A stretch of 46,908 nucleotides of DNA from a virus. The stretch lies in IMG/VR virus record IMGVR_UViG_3300042564_000653, positions 1-46,908 of that record; one strand, given 5' to 3'. Below, one piece after another: positions 2,177 to 25,259 of the stretch. Numbering within the stretch: the first letter of the stretch is position 1; each line of letters begins with the position of its first letter. Made by a program: the position numbers and the translations under genes. The notes beneath the pieces are model-generated. The model was not told the origin of the DNA. It saw only the letters and a list, made by a program, of their open reading frames with translations, and did not search any database.

Positions 2177-3412
2177 TTAATTTAAAAATGCCTTGCCGCT
2201 AAATGCTGCTGAAAATGTTACTACTACCTGGTTTGTATTTGTATAACGTACCTCTCCGATAACTTCATCATTTGCAGAATCAACTATACTAACGGACGGG
2301 TACTTGCCTAAATTATGTGTAATTGTCCATACGGCGGCTGCAACAGTCTGAGTATGAACGTAAGCGGTTTTCGCTGTAAAGGTAACTTTATTGTCAGTTA
2401 CTGCAATGCCTAATCCAGCATTTGCAGATTCAAATGTAAGCGTCTCCCCCTTATTAATTGGGTCTAATGTTGTTCCATCAGATATTTTAAAGGATGTCAT
2501 ATATGTAGTAGACATCCTAAAAGGTAACATTTGCGTTGCCTTATAGCTATATGGCTCCATTGGAGGAAGCAAACCTATTAATTGGTCTATTATAGACTTA
2601 CTGCCATCAAGGGTTTCTGTTTCAAATCTAGCAATTAAATGAGAGTACAGTCCAAGGACTAAGTCATATTCTTCATTAAGTATTTCGTACTCACTTGGAT
2701 TAGTCGACTTATAAGCCTCAATTTGGGTCTTATAAGTATTCATCATTGCAACAAACTCTTCTTGAGTTGGAACTTCTCTGATATCGTAAGTTTCTTGCAA
2801 TAAATCAACATAACTTACCGTTAACCAACTCTTAGAAGTGTGCGTATAAGCCACGGAAATATCCGACTTGACTACATATATCCCCTCGTAGTATTTAGAG
2901 CTGTGAGAGGGCGTTAAAATGTCTCCTACGCTAGTCTTTGTGATTACTCCTACCTCACTTGTTGATGGAGTAGTGGTATAAAAGTTTCTAGTTAGCGTTC
3001 CAGAAAAACTTCCAGACACTTCATATGCCGTTAAATCCTTGAACTGAACCTCTGGCAAAACAACATCGGAATCATTAATAATTGCCTTAGTTGGCTTTTC
3101 CCAGTTGAAATCAAAAGTCTGTTGTGAAATAAATGACGTTGATACGGAATTTAGCGCAACAAAATCAATAATATAATTCCCTGTAAGAATCGTATTGTCA
3201 TTATCTGTAATTAAAGCAATGTCAACTGAACCTCCTGGCGAAGTAATGTCTGGAGAAATAAAGTCAGTATGTTCTACTTTAGAGCCATCAGGAAACGTAA
3301 CTGAAAAGTTACCCTTAGCCAAAACGAACCCTGTCGAAGTATCCGTCAGGCGCAACACCCTTGTAGATGTCTTTTCGTTTACAATAAATTGGGCATTAAA
3401 ATTTGCAGGCAT
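2177..3412 (-). CDS. Tail appendage / baseplate-type protein, 411 aa
   Basis: The N-terminal ~110 residues look like an immunoglobulin-like or upper-baseplate beta domain (alternating hydrophobic strands, FSVTFPDGSKVEHTDF). A middle helical part has Tyr/Glu-rich stretches (EEFVAMMNTYKTQIEAYK). The C-terminal ~55 residues (WTITHNLGKYPSVSIVDSAN...) match a module seen at the end of many phage fibre proteins and recur in diverged form in the 367-aa neighbour. A minus-strand terminator and promoter-like box lie just upstream. It is probably a fibre or fibre-attachment protein; no enzyme motif is visible. Confidence 0.6.
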   Translation of the reverse strand: MPANFNAQFIVNEKTSTRVLRLTDTSTGFVLAKGNFSVTFPDGSKVEHTDFISPDITSPGGSVDIALITDNDNTILTGNYIIDFVALNSVSTSFISQQTFDFNWEKPTKAIINDSDVVLPEVQFKDLTAYEVSGSFSGTLTRNFYTTTPSTSEVGVITKTSVGDILTPSHSSKYYEGIYVVKSDISVAYTHTSKSWLTVSYVDLLQETYDIREVPTQEEFVAMMNTYKTQIEAYKSTNPSEYEILNEEYDLVLGLYSHLIARFETETLDGSKSIIDQLIGLLPPMEPYSYKATQMLPFRMSTTYMTSFKISDGTTLDPINKGETLTFESANAGLGIAVTDNKVTFTAKTAYVHTQTVAAAVWTITHNLGKYPSVSIVDSANDEVIGEVRYTNTNQVVVTFSAAFSGKAFLN

Positions 3413-9239: not shown

Positions 9240-11249
9240 TTAAAATGGGAATATCTCCCTTATGTCGTAAATATGTTGTTTTTGCTCTACTTTTCCTACA
9301 AATTTAGACTTGTTAGCCTGTATTAACGTGTAACCAGATGCCATCGCGGCATCGAACTTGGTCGTCTTGTTAATATCAAACTTTAACCAGTCTTGCAATA
9401 ATCTCATAAAGATAACCTTTTCTACGCTTTCTGTAATGTAGCTTTCGGTAACTTCTGCAATTTGCTGATGCGTCTTAACTGTTGCTGAGATTCCATACTT
9501 GTTGGAATTAGGCATCTTAGTCAAGAACTTCTCATATCCTCTGTACTCAAAGTATTTAATTAAGCCAACTTTGTTATCCTCGGAAAGTATCTCGCATCCA
9601 AAGAAATGACAAAGCTTAATCATATCCTCGTAGAATATCTCAGCCTTTTCAGGTCTATTAAGATATTCAACTAAGAACGTCTCACTAAACTCATCCACCG
9701 CATCATATCTCCTGTACACATATGCAGCACCATCTGACCGCTCTTTACTTGTCGTAATGCTATGGTCAAAAGGGTCAACTGCTATTGCGTACTTCTTATT
9801 CTCCTTTGGAGCTTTCTTTGTTCCATACTCCTCAACCTGATTAAAGCTTGCGTAGTCGTGGACTTGGAATTTCTTATGTACTAAGAACTTTCCATTAGAG
9901 GTCTCGTTAAAAACAACCCTACTGTCACGCTCCGCTTTTTCCCAAACAAATTCTCCACGCAAATATAAATCTTTTTCAGCAATCCACGATATAGATTCCA
10001 TCTGTCTGTTCAATGCCATCGCATCATACAAACAAGTTTCTGCCTCGCTAAAGAATGCTTCGCCGATTGTAAAAGGATTCTTTCTGATAAAAGAAGCTAA
10101 TGCTCGCGGGTCTGTTTCTAGGGCAGCACGTTCTGCCATATAAAACTCTTTGGCTTTTTCTTCGTCGGCTTGACCAAACTTATCATAGAACAATGTCTTA
10201 TACGCTGGCATAAAATATTGATACAACCCTGAACGTGTTCTTCCGTTCTTATTCTTTTCTAATTGATTAGACGCATCCCATAACATCTTAAAAGATTCCC
10301 CGCCATCTTCCATCTCCTCCACAGTTGTAGTGTATAAGGCTTTACCGATAATATGCTCTTCCTGCTGGAGACAGAACTGCAAGACTTGATGTCTGTCGTA
10401 AACGTCAACGTTCTTTGTCTTACCTGCCTCGTCTCCTAAGTATCTATGGAGCTTCATACCGTCATAGGCAAACTTATCTGCAGACTTAAATGTAATAGAG
10501 GATTCTAATTCAATCTTTTCTGCAAAGATGTCGTCTGTCGCACCACGCTTATTAGTCTTAAAGAAACGTAACTCTCCTTTAGGAGTCATACCTTTCTCAG
10601 TATCGTAGATAGGCACAAAGAAATCGGGTAAGTATTTAAACGGCATAACAACACCCTTAGCAAATACGTTGTCCTTAGCGTCTTCGTAAGTCTTAGACTG
10701 GATGCCCGCATTCTTATTCCTGCTGCGAGATGTTAGTTCAAACAAGAAAGCACCCGCGCGCATAGTCTTGCCCTGGCGACGTTTTGTAACCTCAACCATT
10801 CCTAAGCAGTTAGGGTCTTGAACACAGTACTCCAGGAAGTAAAAGAACTCTTTGTCAGTTGCTCGGAACGACGGATAGCCGACGTCCAACTTCCAGTGCA
10901 CCAGGTAAAAGTAATGCAGACCTGTTATATAGGTAGCGTGACCGTTGTTATAGAACCAGAAGCCATTAAGTCTCCTGTCCCATTCTTGGTTGCGGTATTC
11001 TTGCAGCTCAGGATTAAAGTAACCAGGGTTTGTTTTCTGGGTATTAATTTCTTTCTTGCGCTTTGTTTCGTAGTCCTTTGGTGGCTCAGGTCTTTCCCAG
11101 TACTGATAGTCTTTCTTAACAGACCGCGACATAATCTCCCTCTTCTCCCACTGGTTAGTAATAATGTTGAACACATACCCGTTCGGAGGTACACTTACCT
11201 TAATGCCATTAATCTCATACTCCTTACCCTTGGCGTGCTTCCTATACAT
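9240..11249 (-). CDS. terL: Terminase large subunit, 669 aa
   Basis: This is the DNA-packaging motor. A Walker A-type loop TKRRQGKT is at residues 155-162 and a Walker B strand ending LGDEAGKT at 271-278. The C-terminal RNase H-like nuclease half has KYAIAVDPFDHS (Asp near residue 490), a second acidic cluster LSEDNK and a late KFDAAMASGY. The ATPase pumps DNA through the portal and the nuclease cuts the concatemer. It overlaps the upstream candidate small terminase by 8 bases. Residues 1-150 are an N-terminal extension rich in aromatic residues. Confidence 0.9.
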   Translation of the reverse strand: MYRKHAKGKEYEINGIKVSVPPNGYVFNIITNQWEKREIMSRSVKKDYQYWERPEPPKDYETKRKKEINTQKTNPGYFNPELQEYRNQEWDRRLNGFWFYNNGHATYITGLHYFYLVHWKLDVGYPSFRATDKEFFYFLEYCVQDPNCLGMVEVTKRRQGKTMRAGAFLFELTSRSRNKNAGIQSKTYEDAKDNVFAKGVVMPFKYLPDFFVPIYDTEKGMTPKGELRFFKTNKRGATDDIFAEKIELESSITFKSADKFAYDGMKLHRYLGDEAGKTKNVDVYDRHQVLQFCLQQEEHIIGKALYTTTVEEMEDGGESFKMLWDASNQLEKNKNGRTRSGLYQYFMPAYKTLFYDKFGQADEEKAKEFYMAERAALETDPRALASFIRKNPFTIGEAFFSEAETCLYDAMALNRQMESISWIAEKDLYLRGEFVWEKAERDSRVVFNETSNGKFLVHKKFQVHDYASFNQVEEYGTKKAPKENKKYAIAVDPFDHSITTSKERSDGAAYVYRRYDAVDEFSETFLVEYLNRPEKAEIFYEDMIKLCHFFGCEILSEDNKVGLIKYFEYRGYEKFLTKMPNSNKYGISATVKTHQQIAEVTESYITESVEKVIFMRLLQDWLKFDINKTTKFDAAMASGYTLIQANKSKFVGKVEQKQHIYDIREIFPF

Positions 11250-11802
11250 TAGCTATTGTTTCAGGCGTTAAATTAAGTATTTCTTTCTTCTTCTCTTTGG
11301 TATCCCCAAACAGTTTATCTTCGTAGGATTCAATCCGTTTGATAATCGCATCACACTCCTGCATTAACTTGGTCTTAATCTCAAGTGCCTGCAGTTTATC
11401 CTTGTCATTCTTGAAATCCTTAATAGGAGTCAATAATTCTTGCTGATATTGCCACAATACCTCCTCGTTAGCCGTCAGTATTGACCACACCTTGGACGAT
11501 TGATGGCGCAGGTACATATTGATATAGACAAGCAGATTATCGTTCCTTAAATCAAAGATACTCTCTAGGTCGCCCTTAAGTCCAGCCATCTCAGCAGCCT
11601 CCTCCTTACGCTCCTGTATGTTCGATATCTTTAATCGCAGTGGACTCTTCTGGTCGTATATCAGTCCAACGTAAATGATAAGTGGAATATCTGAACTGGG
11701 TGGGTTACCAAATACCTGTTTGATAATCGGATTTTTTCCAAGGTTCTCTGAGAGAACAGGAATTGCTAAATCGGAAAACTCTTCGTTGTTAAATAATGCC
11801 AT
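11242..11802 (-). CDS. Candidate terminase small subunit, 186 aa
   Basis: Placed immediately upstream of and overlapping the large terminase, with the helical, charged composition of a small terminase: a central helical stretch (NIQERKEEAAEMAGLKGDLE), then QALEIKTKLMQECDAIIKRI and a lysine-rich tail. I cannot see a clear helix-turn-helix, so the call rests on position and size. It would recognise the packaging site and regulate the motor. Confidence 0.5.
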   Translation of the reverse strand: MALFNNEEFSDLAIPVLSENLGKNPIIKQVFGNPPSSDIPLIIYVGLIYDQKSPLRLKISNIQERKEEAAEMAGLKGDLESIFDLRNDNLLVYINMYLRHQSSKVWSILTANEEVLWQYQQELLTPIKDFKNDKDKLQALEIKTKLMQECDAIIKRIESYEDKLFGDTKEKKKEILNLTPETIANV

Positions 11803-11956
11803 ATCTTATTACTTCCTACTATATGTTACGCGGTATTGAATCGGCGGGCGGCGCGGCGTCCCAATTCTTTTTTTTCTTTTTTTTTCTTTTAGGTTGATGA
11901 GTTTGAGCTCCGCGATATATAGTATTTATTATTCTTATTTATTACCTTATATATTA
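11803..11956. other. AT-rich, homopolymer-rich intergenic flank of the iterons
   Basis: No gene. A short GC-rich patch (about 11841-11862) is followed by a T-tract with three long T runs (about 11869-11899), then a strongly AT-rich stretch (about 11918-11956) that abuts the first iteron. The AT-rich part is the natural candidate for a DNA unwinding element if the adjacent repeats act as an origin. The T-tract reads as poly-A on the transcribed minus strand, so it is not a terminator for the late genes. Confidence 0.5.
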
Positions 11957-12073
11957 TGTGGTAAAATTCAACCATAGGTATGGTCATTTTTTACCAGAGG
12001 GTATGGTCAAATTCAACCATAGGGGTATGGTCATTTTTTACCAGAGGGGGGGGTATGGTCAAATTCAACCATA
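11957..12073. repeat. Five palindromic iterons (intergenic cluster)
   Basis: Five 20-bp units of the form TATGGT-N8-ACCATA lie at 11957-11976, 11979-11998, 12002-12021, 12026-12045 and 12054-12073; some ends vary (TGTGGT, ACCAGA). The cores alternate between two types, AAAATTCA/CAAATTCA and CATTTTTT. Units are separated by runs of 2, 3, 4 and 8 G, giving start spacings of 22, 23, 24 and 28. The same unit occurs four times inside the initiator gene at 19295-19384, with the CATTTTTT core there in reverse complement. The cluster ends 5 bases before the stop of the cochaperonin gene. Likely role: binding sites for the phage initiator, as a second origin, enhancer or control element. Confidence 0.85.
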
Positions 12074-12078
12074 GGGGG

Positions 12079-12723
12079 TCAAGCTTTTGCACACAAAATA
12101 TCGCCCTGACGCACCGTATAGTACTCTTTCCCCTCGATGGTGTTTTTAAAGTTTGAGTTTTTATTGATGATTACCATTGCTCCTTGACCAACTTTTAGCT
12201 CGTCCGACCCAACTAATGGCTTACCAATGTGTGAAAGTCTTGCAAATTTTGTTGACGTCTTTTTGTTGAGTCCAATCACTAGTCCAGAAGCAGATGTTAT
12301 CGCTTCAACTTTTTGACCAGAGACTTCAACGGTGTCAAACTGTTCTTCAACCACCTGCTCACACAGAGTCCAGCCTCCAACAGGCAATATATTACCACTC
12401 CTAACGACACAAAATACCCAATAATAAGGTACTTTATAATAGTTCCCGTAGATACAGTTCGTTTCATCGGATGTTGTTAAGTAATGAAAGTAAATAATGT
12501 CCCCTACTTGCACTTCTTTCTCAATCTCTACTGACTCCTCATTGTATGCTTTGCCATCTGGTACAGCGATTACTCTACCATAGATTCTAGCGTAGTGTGT
12601 AGGATTAAATTCAGGGTCTATATGGAGCTTCAAGTTACCGTATTGGACAGTATCATCCAAGGCAGCACCGACTTCAACCACGACCGTATTTGGTGGCGAT
12701 TTTTTGATATCGTAAGTAAGCAT
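12079..12723 (-). CDS. Tandem GroES-like cochaperonin, 214 aa
   Basis: Two GroES-like halves are visible. Half one has GRVIAVP (49-55), VQVGDIIYFHY (71-81) and VRSGNILPVGG (107-117). Half two has ARLSHIGKP (161-169), KVGQGAMVIINK (177-188) and GKEYYTVRQGDILCA (198-212), which follows the GroES pattern of a GD-type strand, then EEYLILRESDILA. Phage cochaperonins such as T4 gp31 replace GroES so that host GroEL can fold the capsid protein, and this gene heads the virion operon, which fits. GroES is normally ~95 aa with one domain; two fused domains resemble the plant Cpn20 arrangement. A minus-strand promoter lies just upstream. Confidence 0.65.
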   Translation of the reverse strand: MLTYDIKKSPPNTVVVEVGAALDDTVQYGNLKLHIDPEFNPTHYARIYGRVIAVPDGKAYNEESVEIEKEVQVGDIIYFHYLTTSDETNCIYGNYYKVPYYWVFCVVRSGNILPVGGWTLCEQVVEEQFDTVEVSGQKVEAITSASGLVIGLNKKTSTKFARLSHIGKPLVGSDELKVGQGAMVIINKNSNFKNTIEGKEYYTVRQGDILCAKA

Positions 12724-18822: not shown

Positions 18823-19029
18823 ATGGATAACATAGAAGATATAAAGAATCAAGCATTCCTAGCTATTGTCCGTTTCCGCAAGAAATACTATGAGATAGAA
18901 TTAGATGAGTATCTGTCTGTGTTTAAGTATGCTACGCCAGAGATGAAAGCTTACGACATACTAGAAAAAAAGATAGACAGCATCCTTAATGCAATTAAAG
19001 AAGCAGATAAAATACTGCAAGAAATATGA
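18823..19029 (+). CDS. Unknown helical protein at the head of the replication module, 68 aa
   Basis: ATG 18823 (MDNIEDIKNQAFLAI) is chosen over an in-frame TTG at 18802, which lies in the terminator stem. Helical and charged (AYDILEKKIDSILNAIKEAD). Its end overlaps the initiator gene start by 4 bases, so it is translationally coupled to it. It may be a partner of the initiator; function unknown. Confidence 0.6.
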   Translation: MDNIEDIKNQAFLAIVRFRKKYYEIELDEYLSVFKYATPEMKAYDILEKKIDSILNAIKEADKILQEI

Positions 19030-19694
19030 GTTTTATAGCAATCCCTTTCGAGTTATTAAACAGAGAAGACCTATCGTGTTCTCACAAGGTTCTTATGGGA
19101 TTGATTCACAGTCTATCTGCTAAGGATGGCTACTGTTACGCAAGCAACCAGTACCTGGGCGAAGCAATAGGCGTCAGCTCTGAGAACGTGCGTAAGTGGG
19201 TTAGCCAGCTGGAACAGAAAGGAATCGTATCAAGAATTGTTAAGCGAAAAGCTAACGGGGAGATAGATGTAAGGGAGCTGAGACTGCTTATCCCTATGGT
19301 ATTAAATGACCATACCCCTCTGGTAAAATTCAACCATACCCCTATGGTAAAAAATGACCATACCTCTGGTAAAATTCAACCACATAATAAAGAAGATAAT
19401 AAAAAAGAAGATAATACATATAATGAGCGCTTTGAAGAGTTCTGGGAGATGTATGGAAAAAGAGTAGGCAAAGAAAAGACTAAGAGTAAATGGAGCAAGC
19501 TAAAAAGCAAAGATGTAGACGCTATATTCCTAACGCTCCCAGGTTACATAGCAAGTAGAGAGGTAAAATACAGGAAAGACCCTGAAAGATACCTAAGCAA
19601 TCGGGTATGGGATGACGATGTGCTCCTGGAAGCAACGGCAATTCCACTATCAGCAAATAAAATAACAGAAATCGAGATACCTGATAACTTTTAG
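19026..19694 (+). CDS. Replication initiator, lambda O-like, with origin repeats inside the gene, 222 aa
   Basis: The N-terminal ~75 residues form a winged helix-turn-helix: CSHKVLMGLIHSLSAKDGY, ASNQYLGEAIGVSSENVRKW, LEQKGIVSRIV. The C-terminal part (NERFEEFWEMYGKRVGKEKT ... KDPERYLSNRVWDDD) is the segment seen in phage O-type and DnaD-like initiators. Between them, residues about 91-119 are encoded by the iterons and give an 8-residue peptide repeat (NDHTPLVK, FNHTPMVK, NDHT). It should bind the iterons and recruit the helicase encoded next (2-base gap). This is the same architecture as lambda O, where the origin lies within the initiator gene. Confidence 0.8.
   Translation: MSFIAIPFELLNREDLSCSHKVLMGLIHSLSAKDGYCYASNQYLGEAIGVSSENVRKWVSQLEQKGIVSRIVKRKANGEIDVRELRLLIPMVLNDHTPLVKFNHTPMVKNDHTSGKIQPHNKEDNKKEDNTYNERFEEFWEMYGKRVGKEKTKSKWSKLKSKDVDAIFLTLPGYIASREVKYRKDPERYLSNRVWDDDVLLEATAIPLSANKITEIEIPDNF
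19295..19384. repeat. Four palindromic iterons within the initiator gene (candidate origin)
   Basis: Units of 20 bp, TATGGT-N8-ACCATA or slight variants, lie at 19295-19314, 19319-19338, 19343-19362 and 19365-19384. Start spacings are 24, 24 and 22. Cores alternate: ATTAAATG, AAAATTCA, AAAAAATG, AAAATTCA, so the true repeat is a ~48-bp pair. CCCC or CC spacers separate them. The last spacer is 2 bases shorter, which shifts the peptide frame of the final unit. The same units occur at 11957-12073. Confidence 0.9.
19385..19424. other. AT-rich purine tract next to the iterons (candidate unwinding element)
   Basis: Directly after the fourth iteron the coding strand is almost only A, G and T (encoding Lys, Glu, Asp, Asn), the same arrangement as the AT-rich element next to the iterons in lambda O. 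It would be the site where the duplex opens. Confidence 0.55.
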
Positions 19695-19696
19695 AG

Positions 19697-21124
19697 ATGA
19701 AATCAAACAACATAGTAGATACCTTATTAGAAGAAGACGTCGTCTCTTATTTATTAGAGCACCCGCACCTGGTTAAGGACGCTTCTAAAATTATCGACCC
19801 AGAAGTCTTTATAGACCCGCTGATGAAAGCGTCATTCGCTTCGATGGTGGACTTCAATATCGATGGCAAGGGATTTACTCGCTATGATATATTTCGTGAC
19901 CTTAAATCAAAGGAATCAGAGTTAAACATAGACGCGTCTCCTATCATTAAGTTGCTACCTAAAAGAACTTTTGATTTGAATAGCGTCTGCGTTAGCCTCC
20001 GCGAGCTAGAAAACAAGCGCAGATACAATGACATATCTACCCAGCTTGCCTGCGCTATCAAAGATGGCGACGACATATCTACAATGCAATCCATTATCGA
20101 GAACGGTTTGTCTGATATTATCGAGGGAACAAAGTCTGCTGAGATATTCACCCTTGGCGAAGTTTACGATAGCGTTATGACTAAGCTGGAATTGAATGCT
20201 GGAAACGTTAAATTTTCGGGCATAGATACAGGCTCGCGCAAGTTAAACTACGCGTTAGGTGGCTGGCAAGAGGGAATGATTGTTATCGCAGCTCGCCCGT
20301 CGATGGGTAAAACTATTGTAGGGCTAGATGTTGCGAAGTCATCTGCCAGGTCAGGCAAAAAGGTTTTGTTCTTGTCGCTTGAAATGCCCAAGGAATCTTT
20401 GATGTATCGATACATTTCATCCGAAGCCCCTGAGTTTAAGTACAGCGACATTAAAGCGAATCGAATCACACAGGAGGACGTAAAGAAGATACGCGTATCA
20501 AACGCAAGGGAATTAAAAAAGTTACCGATATATTTTTATGACTCAGATAACAGAGACATTAATTACCTGTCGATGATTTTGACAGGAGAGTGCAGAAAAA
20601 ATAAGATTGACCTGGTAGTAATTGATTATATGCAACTGATTCGAGACAATCAAATGCGCGGACAGGACGATTTCAGCCAGGTGTCCTCCGTTTCTAATAA
20701 AATTCAGAAGCTGACACGCAAACTTGGTATCCCGATTATTTGCCTGAGTCAACTTTCCCGCGGAGCTGAGGGCAGGAGCGATAAGCGTCCGCAGTTATCT
20801 GACATCAGGAGCTCAGGTAATATTGAGCAAGACGCATCTGTTGTAGTTGGATTGTATAGACCGTACTATTACGCTCAGACAGAGGCACGCGCTAACAATC
20901 AACCTGTGCCACCAATGGACTACACGCTGGAATTTATTCTGTTAAAGAACAGGGACGGTATGACAGGTGGGGTGGTAAGGTATTGCGATGTAACAACCAA
21001 TAGGATAGCGGATGAGGAAGAGGAGCTGTTCCGCTTTACCGTAGCTGAGCCAGCATACCACAATTCTGTAATTAATAAGATGGAGGTAGATTTTGATAAT
21101 AATGTAACCATAGCACCATTCTGA
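19697..21124 (+). CDS. dnaB: Replicative DNA helicase, DnaB family, 475 aa
   Basis: N-terminal helical domain (residues ~1-110), a linker, then a RecA-like motor. Walker A is ARPSMGKT at 199-206 and the Walker B strand LVVIDYMQL at about 306-314. The sensor/H3 region is IPIICLSQLSRGAEGRSDKR and the H4 region QLSDIRSSGNIEQDASVV. It is a hexameric 5'-3' helicase that unwinds the fork; the phage has no visible polymerase, so it probably brings in the host replisome. It lies 2 bases after the initiator that should load it. Length is normal for the family. Confidence 0.95.
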   Translation: MKSNNIVDTLLEEDVVSYLLEHPHLVKDASKIIDPEVFIDPLMKASFASMVDFNIDGKGFTRYDIFRDLKSKESELNIDASPIIKLLPKRTFDLNSVCVSLRELENKRRYNDISTQLACAIKDGDDISTMQSIIENGLSDIIEGTKSAEIFTLGEVYDSVMTKLELNAGNVKFSGIDTGSRKLNYALGGWQEGMIVIAARPSMGKTIVGLDVAKSSARSGKKVLFLSLEMPKESLMYRYISSEAPEFKYSDIKANRITQEDVKKIRVSNARELKKLPIYFYDSDNRDINYLSMILTGECRKNKIDLVVIDYMQLIRDNQMRGQDDFSQVSSVSNKIQKLTRKLGIPIICLSQLSRGAEGRSDKRPQLSDIRSSGNIEQDASVVVGLYRPYYYAQTEARANNQPVPPMDYTLEFILLKNRDGMTGGVVRYCDVTTNRIADEEEELFRFTVAEPAYHNSVINKMEVDFDNNVTIAPF

Positions 21125-25165: not shown

Positions 25166-25259
25166 AGTCAGGTGGCGGAATGGGTAGACGCATTTGGATT
25201 CTCTGTCCGATACCTTTGTTAAGGCAAAAAGATTACAGGTTCGAATCCTGTCCTGATTA
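25166..25259 (+). tRNA. tRNA-like, class II (Leu-type body), anticodon uncertain
   Basis: Acceptor stem AGTCAGG (25166-25172) pairs with CCTGATT (25252-25258; one G-U), with A as discriminator. The D arm GCG-GAATGGGTAGA-CGC (25175-25191) is the typical Leu pattern. The T arm ACAGG-TTCGAAT-CCTGT (25235-25251) is canonical. The anticodon arm best folds as TTGGA/TCCGA with loop TTCTCTG, which gives CUC, not a Leu anticodon, and has U at position 37. A variable stem CCTT/AAGG is followed by ~10 unexplained bases. The ends are those of a real tRNA; the middle is odd. Confidence 0.6.

Follow-up and report, generated by a model that had tools for sequence, protein, structure and literature searches.

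Matched iteron arrays inside the initiator gene and in a distant non-coding gap of a probable podovirus of Bacteroidota

We found that the genome of a probable Bacteroidota phage contains two arrays of the same palindromic iterons, and that the two arrays change sequence together between related phages. The DNA analyzed (46,908 nucleotides, positions 1 to 46,908 of IMG/VR record IMGVR_UViG_3300042564_000653; hereafter, the window) has one array within the gene for a putative replication initiator of 222 amino acids. The other array is in a non-coding gap 7.2 kb away, on the opposite strand. Because they change together, the two arrays look like twin sites for one replication protein. We think it probable that the initiator acts at both arrays, that at least one of them is a theta origin, and that the second is most likely another origin or a fork-stalling site. 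Initiator genes often contain an origin, as in lambda O, SPP1 gene 38 and pSK41-type plasmids, which makes the in-gene origin by itself less surprising. Such origins are already known; the new part is the matched, co-diversifying second array.

The initial annotation had proposed an origin inside an O-like initiator gene, composed of four TATGGT-N8-ACCATA units next to an AT-rich purine tract. We found exact TGGT-N8-ACCA cores at 19297, 19321, 19345 and 19367, with the proposed spacings of 24, 24 and 22 bp, within the open frame 19026-19694 (plus strand). The four iterons are at 19295-19314 (core TGGTATTAAATGACCA), 19319-19338 (core TGGTAAAATTCAACCA), 19343-19362 (core TGGTAAAAAATGACCA) and 19365-19384 (core TGGTAAAATTCAACCA), all on the plus strand. 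Unit 4 ends in ACCACA, so that its outermost pair is broken. The adjoining AT- and purine-rich tract (19384-19433, plus strand), a candidate unwinding element, was among the 0.6% least stable 50-bp windows. In total, the window contained nine exact TGGT-N8-ACCA matches, compared to 0.38 expected from dinucleotide shuffles (largest, 2). Four of the nine were in the initiator gene and the other five, which the initial annotation had overlooked, were at 11959-12071. The in-gene array is thus not the sole candidate for the origin, since an equal or larger non-coding array is present 7 kb away.

The assignment of the gene as a replication initiator (19026-19694) was supported by profile matches of the 222-aa protein to HTH_36 (Pfam; 35.5 bits, cut-off 25) and to phrog_270 (replication initiation protein; 9.9e-27 over residues 5-203, covering the winged helix-turn-helix and the C-terminal domain), together with an AlphaFold2 model and about 25 relatives. 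In the model (mean pLDDT 68), a predicted winged helix (aa 1-90) with its recognition helix at residues 52-64 (codons at 19179-19217, plus strand) is followed by a disordered linker (aa 92-130) and a helical C-terminal domain (aa 131-199). The disordered linker is the part of the protein encoded by the in-gene iterons. The best matches in a fold search were 4pql, 4pt7 and 5kbj (weak; best E=1e-3), and a sequence search of the PDB gave weak MarR-like matches only. Pfam detected no RepA_N domain (PF06970) in the initiator, giving HTH_36 instead. A DnaB-like replicative helicase gene (19697-21124, plus strand; PF03796, 6e-66; phrog_19, 1e-72) is next door. The phrog_270/HTH_36 initiators that we examined (the window and Firmicutes relatives) had iterons with an AT tract inside the gene, a pattern seen in those members rather than a formal definition of the group.

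The second array (11956-12074, minus strand) consists of five units of the in-gene type, with cores at 11959, 11981, 12004, 12028 and 12056 and spacings of 28, 24, 23 and 22 bp going towards its AT tract. It fills the gap between two minus-strand genes. On one side is a GroES-like gene (12079-12723; phrog_3188, 7e-11) that is also beside the array in relatives. On the other side is a gene for a protein of 186 amino acids (11242-11802), conserved in relatives and without a PHROG match, upstream of the gene for the terminase large subunit (9240-11249, minus strand; phrog_6681, 1e-92), our reference for the phage backbone. The AT-rich tract of the non-coding array (11892-11958; CACATAATATATAAGGTAATAAATAAGAATAATAAATAC on the minus strand), also a candidate unwinding element, was among the 0.09% least stable 50-bp windows. 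The AT tracts of the two arrays face outward in opposite directions, each following the transcription around it. Separately, core relatives conserve a GC-rich block (TTGGGACGCCGCGCCGCC, minus strand) that is at 11803-11890, upstream of the 186-aa gene, although the adjoining iterons differ; the block is possibly a leader or a packaging site.

We found that relatives of the window in viral contigs share this arrangement. Both arrays were present in all 17 genomes (the window included) for which the two loci could be read, one inside the initiator gene and one in the gap beside the groES-like gene, on opposite strands and 6.6 to about 10 kb apart. We saw no relative that had the protein and lacked the repeats; the array was kept in every relative examined, with a lineage-specific sequence. 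In a k-mer scan, four near-complete genomes gave exactly two peaks, the second array having 26-66 shared 9-mers and the runner-up location no more than 7. Read in the same orientation, the arrays nearly always end with spacings of 24, 23, 22 in the gap and 24, 22 in the gene. After the short last spacing, both continue with CACATAATA or a close variant and then AT-rich DNA. In 12 genomes, the AT flank was in the 0.05-0.34% least stable DNA beside the gap array and in the 0.1-2.1% least stable beside the in-gene array. The gap array usually has 4-5 units and the in-gene array 3-4, and only two in-gene units are recognizable in one relative (G004). The initial annotation had suggested that DNA rather than protein is selected in the repeats. 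Our results agree: the non-coding array also has a shortened final spacing, which indicates that the DNA and not the peptide is conserved, relatives differ in frame and peptide, and changes in the arms are compensatory. The reported 8-residue peptide repeat is simply the 24-bp phase read in frame; relatives have their units in different frames.

We also scanned viral contigs for three tandem TGGTN8ACCA units and obtained 50 matches. Judged by spacing and cores alone, most resembled in-frame coding repeats with 27- or 30-bp periods and were rejected. The matches that had AT-rich cores and a spacing of 22-25 bp (L012, L016, L022, L030, L035 and L041) were the window's phage family. Three distant relatives (L094, L095 and L096) have another format in the gene, 12-bp TCCAACNTTGGA-like palindromes at 15-bp spacing, and L094 has such palindromes in the gap too. 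In one contig (L091/G011, 4030-5055; IMGVR_UViG_3300021141_000254), the groES-like gene runs straight into iterons and then into the C-terminal half of the initiator. Recombination between the inverted arrays may have produced this join by inversion; otherwise it is a chimera of the assembly.

We found that the two arrays of a genome co-vary. Half-sites differ by lineage (TGGTAA, TGGTGT, TGATGC, TGCTAC and TGTCCC, with others in distant relatives), but the unit sequence of a gap array generally agrees with that of the in-gene array in its own genome. The mean fraction of shared 8-mers between a genome's own in-gene and gap arrays was 0.328. When array pairs were permuted, the mean was 0.119 and the largest of 20,000 values was 0.261 (p=5e-5; permutation p-values are optimistic here because the genomes are related). 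A partial Mantel test of gap against in-gene arrays with groES similarity held constant, which corrects for relatedness in part only, gave r=0.72 (p=0.0002; 12 core genomes), and r=0.48 (p=0.01) with one genome per unit type. In the latter set there was no correlation between the gap array and the adjacent groES-like gene (r=-0.11). The gap array varies with the far-off in-gene array and with the helix-turn-helix domain of the initiator, rather than with the gene next to it.

Copying alone is not sufficient to account for the match, because the arrays of one genome have half-sites in common while their cores, unit order and unit number differ. The inner arms of the units were complementary at 3.01 of 4 pairs, versus 1.66 with the halves shuffled, averages slightly affected by a unit caller that missed most L080 and L082 units and added one spurious unit in the window. 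One genome, L086, was an exception. Its gap array (near 3056) is of the TGCTAC/TGCCCC type, as in the in-gene array of L084, and its own in-gene array (10001-10642) is of the TGTCCC type, a partial mismatch with one half-site in common. In several close groups, the gap array of a sister genome scored at least as high as a genome's own.

Residues of the predicted recognition helix sorted with iteron type. Of the 57 columns that vary within residues 1-92, just three (53, 60 and 64) had non-overlapping residues between genomes with TGG and non-TGG units. Units with AA, GT or GC at positions 5-6 were separated by residue 57 alone (K, T and N, respectively). All four residues are within the recognition helix, and residue 53 is S except in genomes with TGG units, where it is E, D or Q. 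We take this as a lead to a possible recognition-helix specificity code, drawn from sequence comparison of few independent lineages. Among core relatives, identity is mostly 92-96% for the terminase and 80-92% for the groES-like protein, but the initiator has only 54-67% identity to that of the window. Decoy origins or satellites are possible sources of pressure on this fast-changing module. Lambda is blocked by lambda origins at ectopic sites (PMC4488673), and in PLE satellites RepA and the iterons are exchanged together as one module (PMC8263062).

Based on these results we suggest the following mechanism. The winged-helix domain would bind each palindromic unit as a dimer, with one half-site per monomer. 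One array would be within the initiator's own gene, where the iterons would encode only a flexible linker, and the other in the non-coding gap between the groES-like gene and the 186-aa gene. The 22-24 bp spacing, about two helical turns, would stack the initiator on one face of the DNA, and the stacked protein could strain the adjoining AT-rich tract open. The C-terminal domain may then help recruit the DnaB-like helicase encoded next door. The second array would most likely be another origin or a site where forks stall, the role suggested for oriR of SPP1.

The layout is most like that of SPP1. In SPP1, oriL is inside gene 38, oriR is in a non-coding gap among late genes, and gp38 binds both; oriR was proposed to stall forks and so switch replication from the theta to the sigma mode (PMC6316719, PMC3485210). 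As in SPP1, the window family has an in-gene and a non-coding array, each with an AT-rich flank, and a gene for a DnaB-family helicase is close by. In contrast to the direct repeats of SPP1-type sites, the sites in the window are palindromes, and the window's two arrays point in opposite directions. Unlike in SPP1, no gp39-type loader was identified in the window, and an hhalign comparison of the window initiator with the replisome organizer from an SPP1-like phage detected no relation (probability 0.6%). This SPP1-like phage served as a control for the k-mer scan, which recovered its in-gene/non-coding pair, with the second place at about 5.2 kb (14 versus 8 for the next best).

The window also has a lambda O-type layout, with four iterons at 20-24 bp in the initiator gene and an AT tract. 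Lambda carries its four iterons, each about 20 bp long and spaced 20, 24 and 23 bp apart, midway along the initiator gene. Lambda O is a dimer, and dimers on neighboring iterons form a higher-order structure (PMC3985674). The annotation's contrast with lambda, by which the window units are strong inverted repeats, was partly right: by our own count lambda iterons have 2-4 of 9 dyad pairs, compared to 5-6 of 8 for the window units. Lambda has a separate helicase loader, P, whereas in the window the helicase gene directly follows the initiator gene. Unlike the window, with its array at 11956-12074, lambda gave no second array in the k-mer scan used on the window family. The same scan detected no second array in Firmicutes phages with related initiators, which have an in-gene array and AT flank; an apparent second peak in an Acetoanaerobium phage had no iterons and was discarded.

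Two other systems share parts of the design. The pSK41-type RepA_N plasmids have a winged-helix N-domain, an origin in rep, an iteron-encoded linker that is dispensable, and a conserved C-domain, and the pPR9 hybrid has an N-domain of the window initiator's own Pfam family (HTH_36, PF13730) (PMC5703833). The window initiator lacks their RepA_N domain, and the review reports an in-gene origin and no second array for these plasmids (PMC5703833). In the ICP1 satellite PLE, as in the window family, the iterons vary together with the DNA-binding domain and are exchanged with it as one module, the C-domain being retained; unlike the window, PLE is a satellite rather than a phage, with a single non-coding origin and a RepA_N domain (PMC8263062).

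The second array could also be a fork barrier, an operator or another control site, and we considered several readings of the pair. One is that both arrays are outward-facing origins, each firing along its own transcription unit (early rightward, late leftward) from one initiator, whose specificity has diversified among close relatives, perhaps through satellites, decoy origins or co-infecting relatives. We regard this as conceivable but doubtful. GC skew cannot place an origin here because it mainly follows gene direction (cumulative minimum near 15 kb, between the arrays; window 13.4-30 kb). The third-codon-position skew of plus-strand genes changes sign between the arrays and at neither array itself, which fits two outward origins and does not prove them.

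It is similarly doubtful that the gap array is the real origin and that the in-gene array serves autoregulation, titration or copy control (handcuffing). The gap array's greater number of units and more unstable AT flank, and the erosion of the in-gene array in G004, are consistent with this. However, palindrome quality is equal in the two classes (5.72 versus 5.70 of 8), and in the related Firmicutes phages the in-gene array and AT flank must serve alone if they are origins. Less likely is that only the in-gene array is an origin and the gap array is a transcriptional operator of the late operon (the 186-aa gene, terminase and portal), used by the initiator for repression or timing. The gap array is between two same-strand late genes, about 150-190 bp upstream of the 186-aa gene, and MarR-like winged-helix proteins are frequently repressors. 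But four to five sites are many for an operator, which would not need the multi-unit phasing of the in-gene array or an unstable AT tract.

We consider it very improbable that the repeats act as RNA hairpins in transcripts. The folding z-scores (-2.5 to -6.4) and the identical orientation of both arrays relative to transcription would fit hairpins, but either strand of a DNA palindrome array folds well, the arrays gave no Rfam match, and the fixed 22-24 bp spacing, AT tracts and association with the recognition helix would be unexpected. That the arrays are a coding peptide repeat, or a recombination or assembly artefact with the second array copied by gene conversion, is hardly credible: the join in L091/G011 indicates that recombination or assembly exchange across arrays does occur, but the peptide varies in frame and sequence among relatives, half-sites are shared without cores, unit order or number, and both arrays are in 17 separate contigs.

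If, as we favor, one initiator acts at both arrays, these phages are a natural set of initiators and matching arrays with several specificity types, in genomes whose terminases are mostly 92-96% identical. The set would make it testable how an initiator shifts its origin specificity when two distant arrays must follow. The reason why a phage retains two arrays for initiator binding would become testable as well, and the twin-origin plan of SPP1 would be extended to an unrelated initiator and to phages of another bacterial phylum.

The portal and terminase of the window were closest to those of Flavobacterium elemo phages and Cellulophaga phages (about 25-32% identity), which makes a podovirus of Bacteroidota the probable source of the window. 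A scan of bacterial genomes for the host gave no close prophage. The window is probably incomplete, since it has no terminal repeat and several relatives are 62-66 kb. It also contains a tRNA gene at 25166-25259 (plus strand; Rfam, 45.8 bits). Finally, two other viral contigs (L010, 5332-5637, and L032, 913-1218) have eleven TGGT-N8-ACCA palindromes at exactly 29-bp spacing, with cores GAGTAATT or GATCAATT, and are apparently unrelated to the window's phage family.
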